Source: Opitutaceae bacterium (GTDB taxonomy: Bacteria; Verrucomicrobiota; Verrucomicrobiia; Opitutales; Opitutaceae). Taken from it: DNA of 62,804 nt. A model generated the notes under the pieces. It ran no database searches. It was not told the origin of the DNA and was given only the letters and a program-made list of their open reading frames with translations. Made by a program: the position numbers and the translations under genes. Positions 17,082 to 27,583 of this stretch are shown here, piece by piece; position 1 is the first letter of the stretch; the number at the start of each line of letters is the position of its first letter. The stretch is from positions 1-62,804 of the forward strand of contig JAIXQE010000050.1 of assembly GCA_027485815.1 (NCBI GenBank), in the 5' to 3' direction.

Positions 17082-17741
17082 TCACCCGAGCAGACTAGCC
17101 CGCACCAGCGCGTAGGCCTCGGCCGGGGTCGCCACGTCACGCCAGCAAGCCGCGGTCACCTCCGGCGCGATCGTCCGCTGGTGCCGGATCAGCACCGTCT
17201 CGACGCCCCCGGCGTGGCCGCCGAGCACATCCACATCCGCATCGCCCACGAGCAGCACCTCCCCGGGAGCGCAGCCCAGGCGGTCGACCACCGCCAGCAG
17301 GCCTTGCGGGTCCGGCTTGTGCGTCGGGAGATCATCGCCGCAGACCACCGCGTCCACGATGCCGTCCAGGTGGTGCGCGGCCATCAGCGTCCGGGTGGAA
17401 GCCCGATCGCGCCCGGTCCAGATCCCGGCCGGAATGCCCCGCGCCCGCAGCTCCCGCAGGGTTTCCGCCGCCCCCGCGTAGGGCTGGATCAGGTGGTGGT
17501 TCCGGTGGTGATACGTCACCATCCGCCGCAGCGCCTCGGGCACGTGGACGGGGTCGGGCAGCAGGTCCGCGAGGAAACGCTCCGGCGGGCCGCCGAGGCG
17601 GGCGAAGATGTCCATCGTGGGTGAACCCCCGAAGGGCTCCAGGGCGTGACGGATGGCCTCGAGGACCAGGGGCAGGCTGTCGATCAGCGTGCCGTCGAGG
17701 TCGAAGACGACGGCCCGCTTGGGCCGGGCGGGTAGCTTCAT
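17082..17741 (-). CDS. HAD-superfamily phosphatase, phosphoglycolate phosphatase-like
   Basis: A 219-residue haloacid-dehalogenase hydrolase. Motif I is VVFDLDGTLIDS (about 11-22) with the nucleophile Asp, motif II lies in IWTGRD, motif III Lys is in THKPDPQ and motif IV is LVGDADVDVLGG. A helical cap domain (about 25-90) places it near Gph/PGP-type phosphatases; the substrate is uncertain. The ATG at 17741 overlaps the TGA of the LolA-like gene upstream by four bases, so they are translationally coupled. An in-frame ATG 39 bases further upstream would lie inside that gene. Confidence 0.85.
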   Translation of the reverse strand: MKLPARPKRAVVFDLDGTLIDSLPLVLEAIRHALEPFGGSPTMDIFARLGGPPERFLADLLPDPVHVPEALRRMVTYHHRNHHLIQPYAGAAETLRELRARGIPAGIWTGRDRASTRTLMAAHHLDGIVDAVVCGDDLPTHKPDPQGLLAVVDRLGCAPGEVLLVGDADVDVLGGHAGGVETVLIRHQRTIAPEVTAACWRDVATPAEAYALVRASLLG

Positions 17742-18607
17742 TCGACGGGGAGAACGAGGGCGGCGGCGGGGGGCGCCCAAGGTTCAGCCAACGACGCCGG
17801 CGCGAAGGCCCCGGCCGGCAAGGGCAGGTTGAGGGCCGCCCCGGTGACCTGGAACCGCGTCTTGTCGCGCGTCAGCTCGTTGCGGTAGTCGGCCTGCCGG
17901 GGGACGTACTGCTCCCCGACCTTCTTGAGGCTCACGAGGTAGAATGTCTTCAGGACGCCGCCGTTGGCCGCCACCAATTCGGTCTGCATCAGGGCGTTGA
18001 ACTGGGTATCCAGGTAGGCGCGGGCCGCGGCGAATCCACCTCCCTGCTCGAGGAAACCGGCGGGCGCCTTGAAGAGATAGGAATAGGCGGGACGGCCAAA
18101 GGCCCGGGCCAGCTTCTCCAACTGCGCCTCCGGCCAGTACAGGAACGGCATCTGCAGATCGAAGGGGGAGACCTCCACCCCGGGAAACAGCGGGGCCACC
18201 GCGGCCGCCGGGGCCAACTGCTCGACCGCCCCGCCCGCCCAGCGCCAGACGCCGCCCTCGACCCCGTTCCGCAGGATCAGCCGGTGCGCCCCACCCCGGC
18301 CATCCTCGATCTCCAGACGGAACGCGGGACCGCTCGCCTCCCGACCGCCCCACAACCGGCCCGGGAACACGCGTTCCTCGCCTCGGCGGGGCAAGGCGCG
18401 CAGCTCGATCGCCAGGTAGAAATTGCCCGCTAGGCCAGCCTGCCGAAACTGCTCGAGAATTCGCGCTGCCTCCACGTCCCCTGGCCTTCCGACCTGGGCG
18501 AGCTCCGGGGGGCGATTGGGAGCGGCGGCGAAGACATCCGCCAGCACCCAGGCGGCCCAGACCACTCCCAGCCGCCAACCTGGCCGGACAAGGACGGACG
18601 GGCCCAT
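17738..18607 (-). CDS. Outer-membrane lipoprotein-sorting (LolA-like) protein
   Basis: A 289-residue exported protein with a signal peptide (about 1-29). The order of elements, GNFYLAIELRALPRRGEE, a strand-rich middle, SPFDLQMPFLYWPEA and DTQFNALMQTELVAANG, resembles proteins annotated as LolA-like outer-membrane lipoprotein-sorting domain proteins in Verrucomicrobiota; they share the unclosed barrel that binds lipid. It may carry lipids or lipoproteins in the periplasm, but that is inferred from fold resemblance. It lies between secG and the HAD gene on the same strand (13-base gap and 4-base overlap). Confidence 0.65.
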   Translation of the reverse strand: MGPSVLVRPGWRLGVVWAAWVLADVFAAAPNRPPELAQVGRPGDVEAARILEQFRQAGLAGNFYLAIELRALPRRGEERVFPGRLWGGREASGPAFRLEIEDGRGGAHRLILRNGVEGGVWRWAGGAVEQLAPAAAVAPLFPGVEVSPFDLQMPFLYWPEAQLEKLARAFGRPAYSYLFKAPAGFLEQGGGFAAARAYLDTQFNALMQTELVAANGGVLKTFYLVSLKKVGEQYVPRQADYRNELTRDKTRFQVTGAALNLPLPAGAFAPASLAEPWAPPAAALVLPVE

Positions 18608-18620
18608 CCGGGGAACCGCT

Positions 18621-19010
18621 TTACTTCTTGGGCGCCTCGGGCGCCGGGGTCGCGGGAGCGGGGGTCGCGGGAACCGTCACCGCGGGGGCAGCCGCCGCCG
18701 GGGCGGGAGCGGGGGCGGCGGGAGCCGTGATGGTCGGGAGGGCTCCGCCGGCGGCGCCCTTGTCGGTCTTGCGCTCGTAGATGCGGCCCAGGTACAGGAG
18801 GAAAGCCAGGATGAAGAAGAGGATCGCCGAATACTTGGTCGCCTGCACGAGCACATTGTTGGTGTCGGCGCCAAACGCGGCCTCCGCGGCACCACCGCCC
18901 AACGCGGAACCGATCCCGCCGTCCTTCGACTTCTGCATCAGCACGATGAGGACCAGGAAGACGGAGACGAGGATCAGGATGAACGTCAGGATGCCAAGGA
19001 CGATGCTCAT
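18621..19010 (-). CDS. secG: Preprotein translocase subunit SecG
   Basis: Auxiliary subunit of the SecYEG protein channel. The 129-residue product has two membrane helices (about 3-22 and 50-72) with the family loop LMQKSKDGGIGSALGGG and AFGADTNNVLVQATKYSAI between them. The C-terminal 50 residues are an Ala/Pro/Thr-rich tail not found in the E. coli protein. The start at 19010 (MSIVLGILTFILILVSVFLV) puts the first helix at the N-terminus as normal. A perfect TTGACA lies 34 bases upstream. Confidence 0.92.
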   Translation of the reverse strand: MSIVLGILTFILILVSVFLVLIVLMQKSKDGGIGSALGGGAAEAAFGADTNNVLVQATKYSAILFFILAFLLYLGRIYERKTDKGAAGGALPTITAPAAPAPAPAAAAPAVTVPATPAPATPAPEAPKK

Positions 19011-19020
19011 GGGAGGGGGA

Positions 19021-19049
19021 GAGGTGCCTCCCCCGCGACCGGATGTCAA
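19021..19049 (-). promoter_or_regulatory. Candidate promoter of secG
   Basis: On the minus strand, TTGACA (19049-19044) is followed after 17 bases by CACCTC (19026-19021), a poor -10 hexamer, and then by the secG ATG ten bases later. The -35 is perfect; the -10 is weak. Confidence 0.4.
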
Positions 19050-19082: not shown

Positions 19083-19850
19083 TCAGGGTCCGCGACCGGG
19101 AGAAGTTGGGGCCGGCGCCGGCTCAGCCCCCCGCCGGCGGATGAAGTCCACGTCGGCCCCGTCCGCCTGGACCTTCACGGTCCGCTGGCTCGAGGTGTCG
19201 GAACCGATGTAGTCCACCGTGGCGGAGGCCAGGATCGGCAGGTACTTCCGCAGGTCCTTGCTCTCGTCCTCCGTGCTCGCGTGGATGCTCCAGAGTTCCC
19301 CCGGCGGACGGCCCTCGCTGGCGGGACGATTCTCCCGGGCGGAGATCCGCACGTACTTTTCGTAGACCGTCACCATCCGCGGCACCTCCTCGTAGCCGAC
19401 GATCTCGTTCCGGGGCGGCTGGTACACCGCGACGGTCCGGAGCGTGGCGTTGCCCCGGGAATCAGTCGACGGCACGGTGTCATAACGCACCCCGCCCCCC
19501 ACCTGCGCGTAGACCGGGACGCTGACCCGCTCGATCTTCGAACGCGGCGCCTCCATCCCGTAATCGAGCTCCACCACCATCTCCGCGCGCTCCGCGGACG
19601 GTGCCTCATAGAGACCCTTGCCGGCGAGCGCCGTGCGGATGAAGTCCGCGGCCTCGCGATGCCGGAGGCTCTCCTCGCCCTTGGTCGGATCCTTGGACTT
19701 CAGCACGTAGGACTGGGCCTCGGTCCGCGCCGGCCGCGCGATCGCGTCGACCTTGACCGCATGCGCCGGCGAACCACAACCCGCGACCAGCAATCCGGCG
19801 ACCACCAGCGCCGCCAGCGCGAACAACCGGTTCCGGGAAAGGGGGCGCAC
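19083..19850 (-). CDS. Predicted lipoprotein of unknown function
   Basis: From the GTG at 19850 the product has 255 residues with the signal sequence VRPLSRNRLFALAALVVAGL and the lipobox LVAGC, so it should be anchored in a membrane facing the periplasm. The remaining part has EMVVELDYGM, SVPVYAQVGGGVRYDTV and the TVYEKYVRISARE segment, a beta-rich pattern like DUF4136-type lipoproteins, but I cannot assign a family. Another GTG at 19883 would overlap the preceding gene by 20 bases; 19850 is 13 bases behind its stop and puts the positive residues close to the N-terminus. It probably forms an operon with the upstream glycine-zipper lipoprotein. Confidence 0.72.
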   Translation of the reverse strand: MRPLSRNRLFALAALVVAGLLVAGCGSPAHAVKVDAIARPARTEAQSYVLKSKDPTKGEESLRHREAADFIRTALAGKGLYEAPSAERAEMVVELDYGMEAPRSKIERVSVPVYAQVGGGVRYDTVPSTDSRGNATLRTVAVYQPPRNEIVGYEEVPRMVTVYEKYVRISARENRPASEGRPPGELWSIHASTEDESKDLRKYLPILASATVDYIGSDTSSQRTVKVQADGADVDFIRRRGAEPAPAPTSPGRGP

Positions 19851-19863
19851 GGGAAAGGCGGGC

Positions 19864-20508
19864 TCAGGGCCCCGTCCGGCCACTCGCGGGCGGGGTCACG
19901 CCGGTGGCGGGCTCCCCCGGCGGGAGCGGGGCCCCGGGGACGGTCTCGCCCTTGAGGCGGGCCAACTCCTCCTCCAACCGGGCGATCTCCGCCTCGGTGG
20001 AGAGCGTCTTCGCCTGCGCGTCGTCGAGTTCCTTTTTCTTCGCCAGCGCGGCATTGCGCTCGCCCTGCAGCCTCTTCAGCCGGTCGGCGGCGGAGTCGAG
20101 CTTGCGCTTGGCCTCGTTCAACTCGAGGTCCGAAATCCGGAATCCCTCGGCGATGGCCAGTTCCTCCTCGAGGGCCGCCTTCGCCTTGGCCTCCTCCTGC
20201 AAGCGCTTCGCCTTGTCCTGCTGAAACGCCCGCTCCTGCGCCAACCGGTCCTGCTCCCGGCGGTCCTTCGCGTCCTGCACCATCCCCACGATCCCGCCGA
20301 TCAGGGCGCCCGCGGCCGCCCCGCCGACCAGGCCGGTCCCCGCCCCCATGCTGCTGTTGCTGCCGACCACCGCGCCACCCGCCGCGCCAATCATCGCCCC
20401 GGTGCCGGCGCCGGTGGCAGTCTTCGAGGGCGCCACGCCGGACTGGCAGCCGGACAACACCGCGAGCGAAACGAGGGCGCTGCCGAAGCGGAACAGGCGG
20501 GTTTTCAT
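19864..20508 (-). CDS. Glycine-zipper lipoprotein with coiled coil
   Basis: A 214-residue lipoprotein. The signal peptide ends in the lipobox LAVLSGC. A glycine zipper follows (about 31-75: GAGTGAMIGAAGGAVVG and MGAGTGLVGGAAAGALIGG), a motif able to insert in membranes or pack as in SlyB/OmpA-like lipoproteins. Then comes a long charged coiled coil (about 80-200) rich in Glu, Ala, Lys and Leu, and a Pro/Gly tail. Function is unknown; envelope-stress or peptidoglycan-associated lipoproteins have similar layouts. The start at 20508 (MKTRLFRFG) gives a normal signal peptide. Candidate promoter at 20584-20611. Confidence 0.75.
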   Translation of the reverse strand: MKTRLFRFGSALVSLAVLSGCQSGVAPSKTATGAGTGAMIGAAGGAVVGSNSSMGAGTGLVGGAAAGALIGGIVGMVQDAKDRREQDRLAQERAFQQDKAKRLQEEAKAKAALEEELAIAEGFRISDLELNEAKRKLDSAADRLKRLQGERNAALAKKKELDDAQAKTLSTEAEIARLEEELARLKGETVPGAPLPPGEPATGVTPPASGRTGP

Positions 20509-20583
20509 CGGGCGGAGACAGGAGGGTCGGGGGAACTCCATGAGAAGGGACGGAAGCGGACGGGGAAGGTTGCTCCGGGACCG

Positions 20584-20611
20584 ACTAAAATTGGGATCGC
20601 GGCGAATTCAA
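20584..20611 (-). promoter_or_regulatory. Candidate promoter for the lipoprotein pair
   Basis: Minus strand: TTGAAT (20611-20606), 16-base spacer, TTTAGT (20589-20584). The region is visibly richer in A and T than the surroundings. It directs transcription away from the divergent channel operon. Confidence 0.5.
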
Positions 20612-20656
20612 CCCCGGCGAGGAAAAAGGTCGGAGGCGCCCGGGGAGGCCGAAAGT

Positions 20657-20686
20657 TTGAACTTTCCGGGGAAACGGTCATAACCT
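20657..20686 (+). promoter_or_regulatory. Candidate promoter of the channel-Hsp70-vWA operon
   Basis: TTGAAC (20657-20662), 18-base spacer, TAACCT (20681-20686); the first ATG is 42 bases beyond the -10 box. It lies in the 220-base divergent region 20509-20728, which otherwise shows no coding signal. Confidence 0.5.
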
Positions 20687-20728
20687 CCGCCTCCGGCCTG
20701 GCGTCCTGCCGGTTACCCTCCTCCTCCC

Positions 20729-21580
20729 ATGCCTTTCCGAACCAAGGGGATTTTCTCCGCGGACTTCCTGGTCCCCGTCTTGGGCCTCCTGCTCGCCGTC
20801 GCCCTCGTGGAACCTTACTACGCCGCCGTCGTCCGCCCGCGCGTGGCGGAGATCGAGCTGAAGCAGCGCGTGATGGCGGCCCGCGGCGGGACGGCCGGCG
20901 CGACTTCGGAACAACGTTCCTTCCACATCATCATCAAGGACCCGGAGCAGCAGATTGAGATCATCTTCGCCCTCTGGGGCGCCTTCCTCCTCGGCTACAA
21001 ACTGCTGGAAGTGCGCCGGGAGCGGAGCCTGCTGCGGCACGATTTCGTGCCCCTGCAACCCGGGGAACGCATCCTGCCCGAGGACGCGCTCGACCGTCAC
21101 CGGGAACTCTCGGCGAGCGTGGAACGGGAGTCCCGCTGGCGGGGCCGGCTCCTGCCCGAATGCATCCTCGCCGCGCTGCACCGGTTCCACGCCACCCGTT
21201 CGGTGCAGGACGCCGCGAACGCCGTCAAGGAACGCGCCGAACTGGCCGCCGACCGGCTCGACTCTTCGCTGTCCCTCGTGCGCTACATCGCCTGGGCCAT
21301 CCCGGCGATCGGCTTCATCGGCACCGTCCGCGGCATCGGCCTCGCCCTGGCCTTCGCCGAACAGGCGATCAAGGGCGACATCAGCCCGGTGATCGAGGCG
21401 CTCGGCCTCGCCTTCAACTCGACCCTCGTGGCGCTCGTGCTCTCCATGGGACTGATGTACCTGATGCACGTCGTGCAATCCCGGCAGGAGGCCCAGATCA
21501 TCGAGACCCAGACCTATTGCCGGGACGCGGTGATCGACGTGATGAAGGTGCCGACCCGCGAGGAGGGATCCGCCGCGTGA
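20729..21580 (+). CDS. MotA/TolQ/ExbB-type proton channel protein
   Basis: A 283-residue inner-membrane protein with four predicted helices (about 11-34, 76-95, 184-210 and 222-250). The last two carry the family signatures: IPAIGFIGTVRGIGLAL (191-207), matching the P-x-x-G-x-x-G-T-V pattern of the ion-conducting helix, and IEALGLAFNSTLVALVLS (222-239). The cytoplasmic loop between helices 2 and 3 is about 85 residues and charged. TolQ, ExbB and MotA work as pentamers around a dimer of a partner with one helix bearing an Asp; here the two vWA proteins downstream are the probable partners. It is the first gene of a four-gene operon; the stop overlaps the next start (GTGA). Not a typical TolQ, ExbB or MotA: no cognate TolR, ExbD or MotB is present. 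Confidence 0.88.
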   Translation: MPFRTKGIFSADFLVPVLGLLLAVALVEPYYAAVVRPRVAEIELKQRVMAARGGTAGATSEQRSFHIIIKDPEQQIEIIFALWGAFLLGYKLLEVRRERSLLRHDFVPLQPGERILPEDALDRHRELSASVERESRWRGRLLPECILAALHRFHATRSVQDAANAVKERAELAADRLDSSLSLVRYIAWAIPAIGFIGTVRGIGLALAFAEQAIKGDISPVIEALGLAFNSTLVALVLSMGLMYLMHVVQSRQEAQIIETQTYCRDAVIDVMKVPTREEGSAA

Positions 21581-23064
21581 AGCCCACCGCGCCGCTCCCC
21601 ACCCTCGGACTGGAACTCGCGGATGCCGGCCTCGCGGCGGCCGGCGGCGACCCCGCGCGGACCGACCCGCAGCCCCTCCTCGTCCCGGATCGCCAGGGCG
21701 CGCGGGACTGGCCCGGTTACGCCTGCAGCGACGGGAAGGCAGTGACGCTCGGGCGCGCCGCGGAAGACCTGTGGTTCGTGCATCCGCGCCGCATCGACCT
21801 CCAGTTTTGGGCGCGCCTCGGGCACGACCCCTCCGCGCTGCAGCTCAACGGCAAGCCCCTCTCCTCTTCGGAACTGGCGTTCCTGTTCCTGCGGGAATTC
21901 CTCGCCCGGCTGGAGCCCGTCGCCGGCCGGCCCGCCCGGGTGGTCCTCGCCGTGCCGGGCGCCTACCTCCGCGATCCCGCCATCGAGGAGGAACGGGTCG
22001 GGCTGCTGCTCGGGCTGGCCCACGAACTGCGGCTCCCGCTCGTCGGGATCGTTGACGCCGGCCTCGCCGCGCTCTGCGCCCCCCAAGGTCCCGGCTGCGA
22101 CCCCAGCCTGCCCGTGGTGCTCGTCGACGCCGGCCTGACCGGGGCCGAACTCACCCTCCTGCAACCGCGCGCGGGCCGGTTGGCGCGCGCGGCCCACCTG
22201 CACCTGCCCCCGGCCGGCCTCGCCGCGCTGCGGCGGCAGCTCACGGCCACGCTGGGCAACCGCTTCCTCCGACACACGGCGTTCGACATCCTCACCGACG
22301 GCCGCGTGGAGCAGGCCTTCTTCCGCCAGGTCGACGACTTTCTGCGCGGGGACGCGGCCGAACACCGGTTCCTCATCAGCACGGGAACGCGCACCTATGA
22401 GATGAGCGCGAAGCGCGAGCAACTCGCCGCCGACGCGCCCGGCCCCGCGGCGGCGATCGTCCAGGGCCTGCAGGAACTGCTCGCGCGCGGGCACGGCGGT
22501 CCCGCTCCTGGCACGGTGGCCTTGACCGACCGCGCCGCCCGGATCCCCGGGCTGGAGGCCCGGCTGCGCGCCGTGACCCCCGCACGCCTCGTCCGCCTGC
22601 CTCCGGATGCCGCGGCGATCGGCGCCGCCCGCCTCGGCCAGACGATCCCGGAGGGCCCCGTCGACCTCGCCGAAGTCCCGGTCTGGAGCGGGATCGACCT
22701 GGACGCCGTGACGCCGATCCCCCCGGGATCCTGGCGGCTGCGGGTCGCGCGTGGCGGCCACGACGGTCCCGAAACCGTTCCCACCCACCTCGTCCTCGCC
22801 GGCCTCGCCCACCCCTTGCCGCGGCAGCGCCAGCTCACCTTTGGGCCGCCGTCCGCAGCCCCGGACCTTACCCTGCCCCTGCCGTCTGGCTCCCCGGCCT
22901 GGACCCTGGTGCAGGAGGGCGGACGCTGGCGCCTTGCCGACACGGACGCCGCGGATCCGGGCGCACCGCTGACGGCGGGCGATCGCCTCGAACTGACCCT
23001 CGGGGATGACCGGACGGAACTGCTACTGGTGCACTGCCTGCCGTCCGCGGGCGCAATGCCCTGA
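21577..23064 (+). CDS. Hsp70/actin-fold-like protein of the channel operon
   Basis: A 495-residue cytoplasmic protein starting with a GTG that overlaps the channel gene stop (GTGA). The N-terminal 190 residues follow the layout of an Hsp70 ATPase domain: LGLELADAGLAAA (about 10-22) in the place of phosphate-1, ARVVLAVPGAYLRD (about 120-133) matching the V-x-T-V-P-A-Y strand, LVGIVDAGLAAL (about 155-166) at the place of INEPTAAAL and VVLVDAGLTGAEL (about 177-189) at phosphate-2. The canonical glycines are partly replaced, so nucleotide hydrolysis is uncertain. The C-terminal 180 residues contain no recognisable Hsp70 substrate domain. I assign the fold from these patterns only. It probably couples nucleotide state to the membrane channel. 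Confidence 0.6.
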   Translation: MKPTAPLPTLGLELADAGLAAAGGDPARTDPQPLLVPDRQGARDWPGYACSDGKAVTLGRAAEDLWFVHPRRIDLQFWARLGHDPSALQLNGKPLSSSELAFLFLREFLARLEPVAGRPARVVLAVPGAYLRDPAIEEERVGLLLGLAHELRLPLVGIVDAGLAALCAPQGPGCDPSLPVVLVDAGLTGAELTLLQPRAGRLARAAHLHLPPAGLAALRRQLTATLGNRFLRHTAFDILTDGRVEQAFFRQVDDFLRGDAAEHRFLISTGTRTYEMSAKREQLAADAPGPAAAIVQGLQELLARGHGGPAPGTVALTDRAARIPGLEARLRAVTPARLVRLPPDAAAIGAARLGQTIPEGPVDLAEVPVWSGIDLDAVTPIPPGSWRLRVARGGHDGPETVPTHLVLAGLAHPLPRQRQLTFGPPSAAPDLTLPLPSGSPAWTLVQEGGRWRLADTDAADPGAPLTAGDRLELTLGDDRTELLLVHCLPSAGAMP

Positions 23065-23088
23065 ACCGGCGCGACCCCGCTCCCCGCG

Positions 23089-24165
23089 ATGTCCCAACTG
23101 GCCCGGAAACGACGGCAGACCGAGGTGTTCAGCCTCTCGTTTCTCGACTGCATCTGCTGCGGCTTCGGGGCGGTCCTCCTCATCTTCCTCCTTACCATTT
23201 CAAAGAAGGGGGACGTCGATCAGGCGGACGTGGACCTCGCCCGGGAGCGGCTGCGCCAGATCCAGTCGGAAGTGAAGCGCAACCAGGAGGACCTCGACCG
23301 GCTGGCGGCGGCCCTCGCCCAGACCCGCCAGGACCTCACGGAGGCCGAACGCCGCGTCGAGGAGGACCGGACCCGGATCTCGGACCGGCGCCGGGAACTG
23401 CTCCTGATGCTGCAGCGGACCGGCGCCCTGCGCGATGCCCTGCAAACCCTCCTCGGGGAGAAGCAGGCCCTGCCGACCGAAGCCGAGCCGCCCCCGGTGC
23501 CGGTGCCCAACGTCGACCGCCGCCAGTACCTCACCGGCGTGAAGCTGCACGGGGAGTTCGTCGTCTTTTTGCTCCGCGCCTCGGGTTCGATGCTGGACGA
23601 CACCATCGACGGGGCGGCGGCCCGGCTGCTGGATGCGGACGAGAAGAAGCGGGAGGCCCCGAAGTGGCGGAAGGCGATCGACGCCCTCACGTGGATGCTG
23701 GCCGCGCTCGAACCCGGGACCCGCTTCCAGATTTTGGTCTTCAACGACGAAACCGCGCCGCTCCTGCCGGGCCGCGGGGAGGAGTGGTTCAACCCGCAGG
23801 ACCGCGAGACGATGACCCAGGTGCTCACCCGCCTGAACGCCCTCGTCCCCAAAGGCCCCGCCAACCTCGAGCGCGCCTTCGCCACCATCCGGACGCTTCC
23901 CCGCCTGCCGGACAGCATCGTGCTCCTGACGGACGGTCTGCCGACCCGCAGCGACTCCCTCGCCCTCGAGGGCGACATCGACGAGGCCAGCCGCGTCCGC
24001 TTCTTCGAGATCGCGGCGCGTCAGCTCCCGCCCCGGGTGCCGGTCAGCACGATCCTGTTCCCGCTGCTCACCGGGGACCCCGGCGCGCCGGGGCTCTTCT
24101 GGGAGCTCGCCAACGCCACCAAGGGCGCACTGGTGAGTCCGGCGAAATCCTGGCCCGACACATGA
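23089..24165 (+). CDS. Membrane-anchored vWA-like protein with degenerate MIDAS (channel partner 1)
   Basis: A 358-residue protein with a short cytoplasmic Arg/Lys-rich N-terminus, one membrane helix (about 17-39) led by FSLSFLDCICCGFGA, a coiled coil (about 45-120) and a vWA-like domain (about 150-345). The Asp before the helix recalls the proton-carrying Asp of ExbD, TolR and MotB. In the vWA part the metal-site motif D-x-S-x-S is altered: Arg163 stands where Asp is expected, followed by A-S-G-S-M; LLTDGLPT keeps the later Asp. It probably does not bind Mg in the usual way. The gene begins 24 bases after the Hsp70-like gene and overlaps the next start (ATGA). Confidence 0.75.
   Translation: MSQLARKRRQTEVFSLSFLDCICCGFGAVLLIFLLTISKKGDVDQADVDLARERLRQIQSEVKRNQEDLDRLAAALAQTRQDLTEAERRVEEDRTRISDRRRELLLMLQRTGALRDALQTLLGEKQALPTEAEPPPVPVPNVDRRQYLTGVKLHGEFVVFLLRASGSMLDDTIDGAAARLLDADEKKREAPKWRKAIDALTWMLAALEPGTRFQILVFNDETAPLLPGRGEEWFNPQDRETMTQVLTRLNALVPKGPANLERAFATIRTLPRLPDSIVLLTDGLPTRSDSLALEGDIDEASRVRFFEIAARQLPPRVPVSTILFPLLTGDPGAPGLFWELANATKGALVSPAKSWPDT
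23143..23172 (+). repeat. 30-bp identical segment, copy 1 (membrane-helix signature)
   Basis: Identical to 24204-24233. Encodes L-D-C-I-C-C-G-F-G-A of the membrane helix in the first vWA gene. It marks the two vWA genes as paralogues or the motif as under strong constraint. Confidence 0.85.
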
Positions 24166-25181
24166 TCCGCCGCCGCCAGACTGAGATCTTCAGCCTGTCG
24201 TTCCTCGACTGCATCTGCTGCGGCTTCGGGGCGATCATCCTGATCTTCGTGATCAGCATCGGCTCCCGGCAACGGGAGCAGCTCGACGTGCTGCTCGCCC
24301 TCCAGCGGGCGCTCGCCGAGCAGGCCGCGGCCCTGACCCGGATCGAGTCGACCCAACTCGAGGCCCGCCGCGAGCAGCAGCGCCTTGCCCCGCGCCTCGA
24401 GGAGGCCCGCCGGCGCCAGGATTCGCTGCAGGCGATGATCGACCAGCTGGAGCGCAGCCTCCAGCAGGAGAGGCAGGGGCAGCAGGCCCTCCTCGTGGAC
24501 CTCGACGCGCTGCGCAAGGAGATCGCCGCCCGGCAGCGCAAGCCGGACCACGAGCTCGTGCTCAAGGAGGTCCCGCCCGCCCCCGTCGGCCTGCCGGTGG
24601 GCAGCAATTTCCTGGCCTTCGTCGTCGACACCTCCGGCTCGATGCGCGACCCGAACTTCGGCGGCCTCTGGCCCGTCGTCATCCGCACCATCGAGACCGT
24701 GCTCGATGCCTACCCCAACGTGCAGGGCATCCAGCTTATCGACGGCGACGGCCGCTTCATCCTCGGCCGCCGCGGCAGCGGCACCGCCGGCTGGCTCCCC
24801 GACTCCCCCCAGACCCGCGAGGCCATCAAGCGCACGCTCCGCCGCTACGATCAGGACACCGTCAGCAACCCAGTCCCGGGCATCTACAACGCGATGCGCT
24901 TCCTTTACGACAAGGAGAACGCCGGCATGCGGATGGGGATCTTCGTGTTTGGGGATGAGTTCAACTCGCCCCAGTCCGCCGACGAGGTGATCCGCCGACT
25001 GGACGAGCTCAATCCCGCGAACAATCAGGGAGCCCGCGCCGTGACGATCAACGCGGTGGGCTTCCCCACCACCATCCGTTACCAGTTCTCCATGGGGAAC
25101 ACCGGCCTCCGCTTCGCCAACCTGATGCGCACCGTGACCTACCTCCACGGCGGCGCCTTCATCGCGCTGCAGGACCTCTGA
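24162..25181 (+). CDS. Membrane-anchored vWA protein with intact MIDAS (channel partner 2)
   Basis: A 339-residue protein laid out like the preceding one: basic N-terminus (MIRRRQTEIF), membrane helix about 12-34 opened by FSLSFLDCICCGFGA, a coiled coil (about 40-125) rich in Gln, Arg and Glu, and a vWA domain (about 147-335). The metal site is canonical: FVVDTSGSMRD with Asp156, Ser158 and Ser160. IFVFGDEF supplies a further acidic residue. With the helix inserted N-in, the coiled coil and vWA domain would be periplasmic. The two vWA proteins could form the heterodimer inside the TolQ-like channel. Its ATG overlaps the stop of the first vWA gene by four bases; it ends the operon. Confidence 0.8.
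   Translation: MIRRRQTEIFSLSFLDCICCGFGAIILIFVISIGSRQREQLDVLLALQRALAEQAAALTRIESTQLEARREQQRLAPRLEEARRRQDSLQAMIDQLERSLQQERQGQQALLVDLDALRKEIAARQRKPDHELVLKEVPPAPVGLPVGSNFLAFVVDTSGSMRDPNFGGLWPVVIRTIETVLDAYPNVQGIQLIDGDGRFILGRRGSGTAGWLPDSPQTREAIKRTLRRYDQDTVSNPVPGIYNAMRFLYDKENAGMRMGIFVFGDEFNSPQSADEVIRRLDELNPANNQGARAVTINAVGFPTTIRYQFSMGNTGLRFANLMRTVTYLHGGAFIALQDL
24204..24233 (+). repeat. 30-bp identical segment, copy 2 (membrane-helix signature)
   Basis: Second copy of the segment at 23143-23172, in the same reading frame of the second vWA gene. Flanking codons differ at third positions while the protein stays nearly the same over about 20 residues. Confidence 0.85.
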
Positions 25182-25208
25182 GGCCCGACCGCGCCGCGGG
25201 AAAGGCGC

Positions 25209-25238
25209 TTGACGCCCGGCGGAGCCGACGCCTACAAC
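25209..25238 (+). promoter_or_regulatory. Promoter of rpmF-plsX-fabH
   Basis: TTGACG (25209-25214), 18-base spacer, TACAAC (25233-25238). One of the best sigma-70-like matches in the window; it leaves a leader of about 60 bases before rpmF. Confidence 0.6.
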
Positions 25239-25303
25239 CGGACCCTTTTCCTCCCGCGAACCGCGACGCCCGCGCGACGCTCCGCCTCCACCACCTTCCT
25301 CCC

Positions 25304-25483
25304 ATGGCCAATCCGAAACGCAAGCAGTCCAAACGCCGCAGCGCCAACCGCCGGGCGGCCAACGCCTTCAAGGCCCCGGAATTCGCCAAGGATCCGACCG
25401 ACGGCACCGCCTTCCGCCCCCACCGCGTCAACCCCAAGAACGGGATGTACCGCGGCCGTCAGGTGCTGAACGTCGAGGTCTGA
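25304..25483 (+). CDS. rpmF: 50S ribosomal protein bL32
   Basis: A 59-residue basic protein beginning MANPKRKQSKRRSANRRAA, the typical bL32 N-terminus (normally M-A-V-P-K-R-K-x-S), and continuing to HRVNPKNGMYRGRQVLNVEV. The zinc-binding cysteines seen in some bL32 proteins are absent, so this is the Cys-less form. It precedes plsX and fabH, the standard order in many bacteria. The usual upstream yceD (DUF177) gene is missing. It has its own promoter at 25209-25238. Confidence 0.93.
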   Translation: MANPKRKQSKRRSANRRAANAFKAPEFAKDPTDGTAFRPHRVNPKNGMYRGRQVLNVEV

Positions 25484-25520
25484 GCCTTTCCGGCTCGATC
25501 CCAAGTCTCCCCGTCAGGCG

Positions 25521-26579
25521 ATGGGCCCCCCCCCGACCGCCGAGGCCCGCATCGCGGTCGACGCGATGAGCGGCGACCTCGGTCCCGTCGAGGTCGTGGC
25601 GGCCGTCAAGCTGGCCCGCGAGACCCTGCCCCAGCTTCCCCCGATCACCCTCGTCGGTGATTCGGCCGTGCTCGAGGACCTGTTGCGCCGCGAGCAACTG
25701 GCCCCCGACGAGCGCCTGCAGCTCCTGCACGCGAGCGAGGTCATCACGATGACCGACAAGCCGATGCAGGCGCTGAAGCGCAAGAAAGACGCCTCGATGG
25801 TACGCGCCATCGAGCTGGTGAAGTCCGGCGCTGCCTCCGTCGTGGTCTCCTGTGGCAACACCGGCGCTCTGATGGCCGGCGGCACCCTGAAGCTCCGCAC
25901 GATGGCCGGGGTCGCCCGCCCGGCCCTGGCCGCCATCGGTCCCCGCCGGGGCGGACACTTCGTCCTCCTCGACGCGGGTGCCAACCCGGAGGCCAAGACC
26001 GAGTACCTGGTCCACAACGCGATTTTGGGCAGCCATTACTGCCGCGTGATGCTGGGGGTCGAGCGGCCGCGAATCGGCCTGATGAGCATCGGGACCGAGG
26101 AGGGCAAGGGCACGGCCCTGATCACCGAAACCCACGAGCAACTGAAGCGCCTCGGGGACCTGATCCATTACGTCGGCCCAATCGAGGGCTTTCAGGTCTT
26201 CACGGACCAAGTCGATGTGATCGTGTGCGACGGCTTCACCGGCAACATTCTGATCAAGAGCTGGGAGTCGCTGGCCAAGTTCTTCTCGCACCTCCTGAAG
26301 GAAGAACTGCGGGCCAACCCGCTCCGCGCCACCGGGGCCATGCTCGCCCGCGGCGCATTCCTGGCGCTCAAGGAGCGGATGAACCCGGAGCGTTATGGCG
26401 GCGCCCCGCTGCTCGGCCTCAACGGCAACATCCTCAAGGCCCACGGCTCCTCCAACCGTCACGCCATCGTCAGCGCGCTCAAGGCGGCCGGCGAGATCCT
26501 CCACGCGGACATGAACCGCCACATCGAGGCGGACATCGCCCGCGCGAACCAGGTGCTCGCGACCCCGGCCGCGGCCTGA
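25521..26579 (+). CDS. plsX: Phosphate acyltransferase PlsX
   Basis: Converts acyl-ACP to acyl-phosphate, the first step of glycerolipid synthesis with PlsY (encoded at 58558-59214). The 352-residue protein has the family's N-terminal [12 protein letters not shown] (canonical AxDAMGGDxxP with Ser for Gly), [47 protein letters not shown] and [11 protein letters not shown]. It lies between rpmF and fabH, with 37- and 38-base gaps. Peripheral inner-membrane enzyme in other bacteria. Confidence 0.95.
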
Positions 26580-26617
26580 GCCCGCACCGTCGCGCCCGCG
26601 GGTTCGCCCCTTCGTCC

Positions 26618-27583
26618 ATGACGAACCGTTCCACCGTGATCCTCGGCACCGGGTCCCACGCCCCCGAGCGCGTGGTGACCAACGGCGACCTGGCGCTCCA
26701 GGTGGAGACCTCGGACGAGTGGATCCGGACCCGCACCGGCATTCGGGAACGACGGCTCGCCGCACCCGCGACCACCACCTCCGACCTCGCGGTCGCAGCC
26801 GCGCTGCCGGCCCTCGCCCAGGCGGGGCTCACCCCGGCGGACATCGACCTGCTGATCGTGGCCACGATCACGCCCGACACTCCCGTGCCTGCCTGCGCCT
26901 GCCACGTGCAGCGGAAGCTCGGCGTACCCACCCACGCCGCCTGCTTCGACCTCAACGCCGCCTGCTCCGGTTTCCTCTACGCGCTCGACACGGCGGCCGC
27001 CCTGCTGACCTCCGGCCGATACCGGCGCGCCCTCGTGATCGGGGCGGAAAAGCTCTCGGGCATCGTGGACTGGCAGGACCGCACCACCTGCGTGCTCTTT
27101 GGCGACGGAGCCGGGGCGGTCGTGCTGGGCACCAGCGACGAACCCGGCCGGGGCCTGCTGGGCACCCGCCTCGGTGGCGACGGCACCAACGCGGAGCTGC
27201 TCTGCGTGCCCCCCCCCTCTCCCGGGGAGCGCGGCCCGTTCCTGCGGATGCGAGGCAAGGAGATCTTCAAGCTCGCCGTCCGCGCGATGGACGACGCCGC
27301 CCGCGAAATCCTGGAACACCACGGCCTGCGGGCGGATCAGGTGTCCCTCGTGATTCCCCATCAGGCCAACCAGCGCATCATCGACGCCATCGCGGAGTAC
27401 CTCGAACTGCCGCCCGATCGCTTCTTCGTGACCCTCGATCGCTCCGGCAACACCTCCGCCGCCTCGATCCCGCTCGCCTTGGACGAGGCCCATCGCGCCG
27501 GCCGGATCCAGCGCGGCGATCTCGTGCTGCTCGTGGCCTTTGGGGCGGGCTTGACCTACGGAAGTGCCCTGCTTCGCTGGTGA
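26618..27583 (+). CDS. fabH: Beta-ketoacyl-ACP synthase III
   Basis: Starts fatty acid synthesis by condensing acetyl-CoA with malonyl-ACP. The 321-residue protein has a complete catalytic triad: Cys116 in [13 protein letters not shown], His248 in [10 protein letters not shown] and Asn278 in [27 protein letters not shown] near the N-terminus is typical. The ATG at 26618 gives the standard length; a longer open frame upstream is a shadow of plsX. The stop is ten bases before the start of the BamD-like gene. Confidence 0.96.

Follow-up and report, generated by a model that had tools for sequence, protein, structure and literature searches.

Six neighbouring genes in a 62,804-nt stretch of DNA from an Opitutaceae bacterium (contig JAIXQE010000050.1 of GCA_027485815.1, an assembly of 4.08 Mb in 232 contigs; the stretch is hereafter called the window) appear, on balance, to encode a proton-driven trans-envelope motor, in which vWA heads would act on outer-membrane lipoproteins and a pseudo-Hsp70 would serve as a cytoplasmic scaffold or regulator. 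The core of this locus is a member of the already predicted TolQ-vWA family. In the proposed mechanism, a pentamer of the TolQ/MotA-type subunit (gene 1) would encircle a heterodimer of two vWA proteins, vWA1 and vWA2 (genes 3 and 4), whose helix Asp would carry protons past a ring of channel Thr residues, and the proton flow would turn or pull the vWA pair. A long coiled coil would hold the vWA heads out in the periplasm, allowing them to act on one or both of the divergently encoded lipoproteins of the outer membrane; the Hsp70-fold protein (gene 2) would stay on the cytoplasmic side and act on the motor as a scaffold or a regulator without hydrolysing ATP; it would be an accessory part, missing from some lineages.

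Williams-Jones et al. (2025) predicted a motor composed of TolQ and paired TPH-vWA proteins (PMC12204202). According to the main text of that paper, the vWA proteins bear a TolR/ExbD-like helix, form heterologous pairs with a conserved Asp, co-occur tightly with tolQ, without tolR, and span Proteobacteria and Verrucomicrobia; AlphaFold3 models contain a Thr ring, and no phenotype is given. The locus in the window likewise has a tolQ-like gene without an adjacent tolR or exbD, a pair of distinct vWA proteins, each with one TolR-like helix that bears Asp, and conserved Thr residues in the channel ring (T199 and T232); it differs by adding a pseudo-Hsp70, two lipoproteins and a vWA1 whose metal ion-dependent adhesion site (MIDAS) is degenerate. 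The original prediction, made from the letters of the window, held that no system of this make-up had been characterised; that does not hold for the core. The main text of PMC12204202 contains no mention of Hsp70, a chaperone, ASKHA, MIDAS, a glycine zipper or a word beginning with Opitut-. Relative to that main text, the new elements are the pseudo-Hsp70 fold and its link to the motor, strict yet dispensable, the asymmetry of the two MIDAS motifs and the two divergent lipoproteins. No other prior description of the locus was found in open-licence PMC papers. Conflict systems bearing vWA and HSP70 components have been described (PMC7159879); MotA, ExbB and proton channels do not appear in the main text of that paper. 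According to the main text of PMC12204202, neither a function nor a partner is known for the vWA-type motors, and the co-inherited six-gene set offers a candidate controlling component in the cytoplasm as well as candidate targets at the outer membrane.

The channel and its vWA partners

Gene 1 (20729-21580, forward strand, 283 aa) had been proposed to encode a TolQ/MotA-like channel, and its product matches Pfam family MotA_ExbB (PF01618) above the cut-off, with an E value of 5.8e-11. A hydropathy scan places helices at about residues 8-26, 191-209 and 221-249; counting a weaker helix near residues 77-93, which lies under the threshold, our reading of the layout is a putative MotA-like arrangement of four helices, and the chain ends about 34 residues past the last of them. 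Thr199 and Thr232 are invariant in 21/21 rows of the channel alignment (A4), and they align with Thr residues in the genome's four further MotA_ExbB proteins. By eye, an ExbD/TolR-like gene adjoins three of these four paralogues and none was seen beside the fourth (L080); gene 1 has none either, as neither tolR nor exbD was found beside tolQ when the operon was read and compared with Pfam.

The two vWA proteins share one architecture, consisting of a basic N-terminus, a single helix by hydropathy, a coiled coil and a vWA domain; the last three had been described from the sequence. vWA1 (23089-24165, forward strand, 358 aa) matches Pfam VWA_3 with an E value of 7.1e-9; vWA2 (24162-25181, forward strand, 339 aa) matches Pfam VWA weakly (0.0054, below the cut-off), and its predicted structure has a vWA fold (Z 16.9 over 164 residues, root-mean-square deviation 2.5). 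The FSLSFLD helix is present in both, placing the Asp at position 20 in vWA1 and 16 in vWA2. The original prediction had proposed conservation of this Asp as a check; it is invariant in the alignments of vWA2 (A2, 19 rows) and vWA1 (A3, 18 rows), and it appears as FLD, FMD or FID in every copy whose helix is printed, a set that does not include the first vWA gene of L068. Moreover, the predicted structure of vWA2 contains a long helix at residues 36-110, modelled with modest confidence; its roughly 75 residues amount by arithmetic to about 11 nm, a length that could hold the head far out from the inner membrane.

The two proteins differ in their MIDAS motifs. The DxSxS motif of vWA2 is intact in all copies read, including those of families f2, f4, f20 and f25. 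In vWA1, the first Asp of the motif is replaced, by Arg163 here and by Arg in most copies from family f1 (Opitutaceae); elsewhere, f2 has Glu, f20 and f25 keep the Asp, and no recognised motif is present in L062 and L114-L117.

Each alignment contains the window together with relatives from 24 contig-search loci, 19 of them in A1 (20 rows, Hsp70-like protein), 18 in A2, 17 in A3 and 20 in A4; A1-A4 contain neither the truncated loci nor certain complete ones, such as L043 and L051 in the case of A1. The relatives are metagenome-assembled genomes titled Opitutaceae, Opitutae, Opitutus or Verrucomicrobia. Presence of the genes was further scored in 387 Verrucomicrobiota genomes (the phylum sample) and in 120 genomes of family f1 (the family sample); the contig-search loci overlap with the genome sample, and L048 and L055 are one contig.

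Across the phylum sample, the TolQ profile matches 24 of the 387 genomes with at least 221 bits, the next match having 103 bits, and 44 pass an E value of 1e-20. Of the 24 channel genomes, 23 also have a vWA2 match of at least 154 bits, versus 0/363 of the others at an E value of 1e-10; the single miss is G320, whose contig ends 271 bases after tolQ. The Hsp70-like profile matches 12 of the 24 versus 0/363 at 1e-6, and a more permissive local profile also detects the gene in G119 (L062, 90 bits). In the family sample, where counts are not independent events, the channel is present in 43/120 genomes and the Hsp70-like gene in 42/43 of these versus 0/77 of the remainder. Thus, homologues of the proteins occur together, the opposite of the pattern that the original prediction had named as refuting it. 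The order of the genes is also kept: the Hsp70-like gene follows tolQ in 24/24 contig-search loci, and it is followed by vWA1 in 22/22 and then vWA2 in 19/19 of the loci whose contig reaches that far. Further, the tolQ, Hsp70-like and glycine-zipper lipoprotein genes are present or absent together within genera, namely g1 (four genomes with, G010 without), g5 (G155 and G274 with, G075 and G122 without) and g111 (G422 with; G375, G442 and G459 without).

The proposal that vWA proteins stand in for TolR/MotB is well supported by this sequence comparison, because the helix Asp and the channel Thr residues are invariant, the operon has no TolR or ExbD, and the genes co-occur strictly. The locus shares with TolQR-TolA-Pal and ExbBD-TonB a MotA_ExbB channel, an Asp-bearing helix and a presumed proton drive; it differs from them in having vWA heads rather than the TolR/ExbD periplasmic domain, and in that no TolA or TonB was recognised among its six genes.

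Some TolQ relatives have other kinds of partner. Those at L070 (5587-8795), L071 (5044-8594), L073 (6024-8652) and L074 (5538-9044), all from Verrucomicrobiota, stand with two unlike TolR-type coiled-coil proteins in which no vWA domain was seen, and in L070 and L074 the helix of one partner lacks an Asp at the usual place.

The Hsp70-fold protein

Gene 2 (21577-23064, forward strand, GTG start, 495 aa) had been called Hsp70-like, a description borne out by its predicted fold. Its product has no match in Pfam, NCBIfam or PADLOC at an E value of 1, and 0/20 members of A1 match HSP70 or FHA in Pfam at 0.5; single-sequence searches of the PDB with this protein and with the channel likewise found no relative. 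An AlphaFold2 model built from the 20-row alignment has a mean predicted local distance difference test score (pLDDT) of 87.5 and a predicted template modelling score (pTM) of 0.82, and via this model residues ~6-360 adopt the fold of an Hsp70 nucleotide-binding domain (NBD), with 5mb9_B as the best match (Z 33.0, root-mean-square deviation 3.6, 353 aligned residues), where matches within one Z unit were counted as tied. Foldseek places 4b9q_A first (E value of 8.5e-19). A profile comparison with the genome's own DnaK is in register and not significant (E value of 0.037), so the Hsp70 assignment rests on the fold.

The glycine motifs that bind phosphate 1, phosphate 2 and adenosine (DLGTT, DLGGGT and GG) are kept in 0/20 homologues, the register of these loops being taken from the non-significant DnaK alignment and the fold match; acidic residues are retained at the corresponding places. 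The loss in all 20 sequences suggests that the gene 2 product is probably a pseudo-ATPase, although it may still bind ATP. It thus shares the NBD fold with Hsp70 chaperones and differs from them in its nucleotide loops. Ssz1, the Hsp70 of the yeast-type ribosome-associated complex, is not known to hydrolyse ATP. It is among the tied best fold matches (4gni_A, titled Ssz1, Z 32.7; 5mb9_B, the entry for the complex), though its function is unrelated. No signal peptide was seen by eye, and the only stretch to exceed the hydropathy threshold, barely, is at residues 141-159 and falls within the NBD; these features agree with the cytoplasmic location that had been proposed. PilM and GspL are assigned an actin-type fold. 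As proteins of that fold at the cytoplasmic face of trans-envelope machines (type IV pili and type II secretion), they provide an analogy for gene 2 (excerpts of PMC3724824).

The C-terminus, the part considered for an Hsp70 substrate-binding domain and barely covered by the fold search, is beta-rich at residues ~385-490 and may be weakly FHA-like. In particular, its best PDB profile match is the FHA domain of CHFR (weak, E value of 0.21), and hhalign scores it at 8.3e-5 with a profile of three FHA sequences and at 0.014-0.023 with FHA sequences taken singly, compared to 0.057 for the best of 80 single-sequence controls; by our reading, the usual phosphothreonine residues are missing.

Two divergent lipoproteins

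The operon had been drawn as four genes, and these are indeed present; two conserved lipoprotein genes just upstream, on the reverse strand, were missed, so the unit is larger than 20657-25181. The nearer gene (19864-20541, likely ATG start at 20508) encodes a glycine-zipper/coiled-coil lipoprotein with the lipobox LSGC followed by Gln, and matches Gly-zipper_YMGG at 5.6e-5, below the cut-off. The second (19083-19883 as the listed open reading frame, its true start being uncertain) has the lipobox VAGC and no Pfam match. The intergenic region between the divergent genes extends from 20542 to 20728, or from 20509 should translation begin at the later ATG.

Wherever the start region of either lipoprotein is printed, its N-terminus is hydrophobic and leads up to a Cys; in L041, L045 and L054, the start of the second lies outside the print. 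The strict lipobox pattern is found in 22/35 and 23/30 copies across the two families, and most of the others show forms such as WSGC, GAGC and QWGC. In E. coli, the residue after the lipobox Cys decides membrane sorting, and the absence of Asp points to the outer membrane. Asp follows the Cys in no copy where this residue is printed, suggesting by the E. coli rule that both lipoproteins would be located in the outer membrane.

Within family f1, the glycine-zipper gene lies beside tolQ on the opposite strand in 32/33 loci; the exception, L036, has 23 upstream bases. In the family sample, its profile scores at least 157 bits in 43/43 channel genomes, always divergent and 170-276 bp from tolQ by match boundaries, while the best match in the 77 channel-less genomes has 94.7 bits (G453); weaker matches (E value of 1e-8 or better) in 27 of those 77 are taken to be other zipper lipoproteins. 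In G446 the gene is split between two contigs, and in G465 between two matches. The second lipoprotein family is present in 43/43 versus 6/77 genomes, and in 37/43 it adjoins tolQ on one contig; in three of the other six (G446, G466 and G403), a contig starts with tolQ or the zipper gene. Both profiles (A5 and A6, which combine contig-search loci and stretches from the genome sample) were built from tolQ-adjacent copies, and the scores favour such copies.

The presence of two divergent lipoproteins favours an envelope machine over a defence system, and envelope maintenance seems a likelier purpose of the six-gene motor than defence. A bolder version of the proposal, which we regard as a tentative possibility, is that a proton-driven 5:2 motor has a cytoplasmic Hsp70-fold subunit, once a chaperone ATPase and now a switch or scaffold equipped with an FHA-like reader, and that its periplasmic vWA heads grip the outer-membrane lipoproteins. 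If true, the Hsp70 fold would have been put to an unusual new use in a membrane motor, and the motor would represent a further layout for transmitting force across the envelope beside those of TolA, TonB and MotB.

Competing explanations and genomic setting

Several observations weigh against the six-gene motor as proposed. A search of the PDB with the TolQ profile (A4) returned chance matches and no solved TolQ, ExbB or MotA chain, so the mapping of channel residues rests on Pfam and on the paralogues within the genome. Co-occurrence was scored on the best candidates per genome only (4 for the Hsp70-like protein, 5 for vWA2 and 6 for the channel in the phylum sample; 13 for the Hsp70-like protein in the family sample). 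In G158, tolQ lies on a different contig from the Hsp70-like and two vWA genes, which are located at the end of theirs; in G157, tolQ and vWA2 are on separate contigs. As for the lipoproteins, neither was found beside tolQ outside f1, including no glycine-zipper gene in L058-L065 and L118-L120 by locus comparison, apart from weak zipper matches in the f2 loci L066-L068; within f1, no copy of the second was detected next to tolQ in L037, L040, L043 and L052. The six motor-less family genomes with a relative of the second lipoprotein, together with extra copies in the window's own genome (G000:C206:1570-2247 and G000:C46:18309-18863), loosen its link to the motor.

Further, the Hsp70-like gene is not essential to the motor core, since in G404 and in f2 (L066-L068 and L120) tolQ is directly followed by a vWA gene, and profile searches found no Hsp70-like gene elsewhere in those genomes; at least two lines have lost this component or had yet to acquire it. 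The G404 locus (L151, 4842-6842), with tolQ then vWA1, belongs to an otherwise typical family member and would be a natural knock-out or an older state. In f20 and f25, the slot between tolQ and the vWA genes holds a gene of 268-374 aa that is only remotely similar to the Hsp70-like family: profile comparison gives E values of 9e-7 for five f20 sequences jointly and 3.7e-6 for L060, against 0.0088 for the best of 60 unrelated controls, and 3/5 f20 sequences taken singly fail to beat that control.

This dispensability, together with a fold that suggests a chaperone origin, would also be expected if the Hsp70-like protein only helped the vWA proteins to assemble or fold and stood outside the working motor. 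We consider this unlikely, as the glycine motifs of the ATP loops are retained in none of the 20 sequences and the gene occurs, in the family sample, only alongside the motor. A gated ion channel or signalling complex, in which ligand binding by the vWA heads is reported inward via the Hsp70/FHA-like protein without torque, is less probable still; it draws on the weak FHA-like C-terminus and on a TolQ relative from a Rhizobium plasmid that lies beside PP2C, FHA and Ser/Thr-kinase genes, but the Asp and Thr residues of the 5:2 motor family are invariant, and the Rhizobium protein has a different partner with no recognised vWA domain beside it. That locus (L148, 1-17816; Rhizobium leguminosarum plasmid pRlBT01d, NZ_CP125637.1, 157000-192000) pairs the TolQ relative with a TolR-like coiled-coil protein whose helix reads FSMSVLD, and the pair adjoins genes for PP2C, FHA and vWA-FHA proteins and two Ser/Thr kinases, as if for a phospho-controlled motor. 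The same motor could instead serve surface gliding or adhesion in the manner of AglRQS or GldLM, with an adhesin carried by the vWA heads or the lipoproteins. Gliding is suggested for a related vWA family in the main text of PMC12204202, and the presence of the motor in the family is patchy; nevertheless, none of the six was recognised as an adhesin or gliding gene (no genome-wide search for gliding genes was made), and we judge this reading to be quite unlikely as well. Flagellin was found in 28/43 genomes with the motor versus 41/77 without (p 0.25); its presence is unrelated to the motor, giving no sign that another motility system is replaced, and replacement of flagella was rejected.

The original prediction had also entertained a defence system comparable to Zorya, in which the motor would sense phage damage to the envelope and trigger an effector. 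ZorA has a long tail. ZorAB belongs to the same 5:2 motor superfamily, and PADLOC profiles give weak matches of gene 1 to the ZorA motor domain (best 24.2 bits, 3.9e-6) and weak coiled-coil matches of genes 3 and 4 to JetC and LmuB (best for gene 3, 5.1e-4); the distribution within genera is also patchy. Against this, the four proteins have no match to ZorB, ZorC, ZorD or ZorE in PADLOC, the short C-terminus of the channel lacks the ZorA tail, no homologue was found in viral contigs or phage records, the lipoprotein partners are conserved, and the neighbouring genes look like housekeeping genes. The defence reading was rejected as highly improbable. In a plasmid collection, no match was found for vWA2 or the Hsp70-like protein, and three weak ones for TolQ. 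Elsewhere, the plasmid loci L076 (5734-8313, Anabaena) and L077 (5518-8118, Microcystis) have a MotA/TolQ/ExbB gene with a pair of small hypothetical genes after it, the former near type III-B CRISPR and viperin genes and the latter near a helicase/methylase set, and may represent a motor-type defence system.

The four genes of the operon are joined by a GTGA overlap, a 24-base gap and an ATGA overlap, as had been described and as a check of the open reading frames and sequence confirms. The promoter proposed for them fared differently: TTGAAC-N18-TAACCT is present at 20657-20686, but by our count only 7/12 consensus bases are matched, and a consensus scan of 19500-26500 listed no promoter-like site, with 0.2 expected. 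The motif is not above chance, and it was rejected as evidence. Base composition gives no sign of a foreign origin, the G+C content being 68-74% in every 2-kb step. Downstream, at 25304-27583, the neighbours are genes that we take to be those for RpmF, PlsX and FabH; rpmF and plsX were seen in L031 and L034 only and not in other loci that reach equally far, so they are treated as chance neighbours. On the other side, at 17738-19049, the locus is flanked by genes for a LolA-like protein, below the Pfam cut-off, and SecG.

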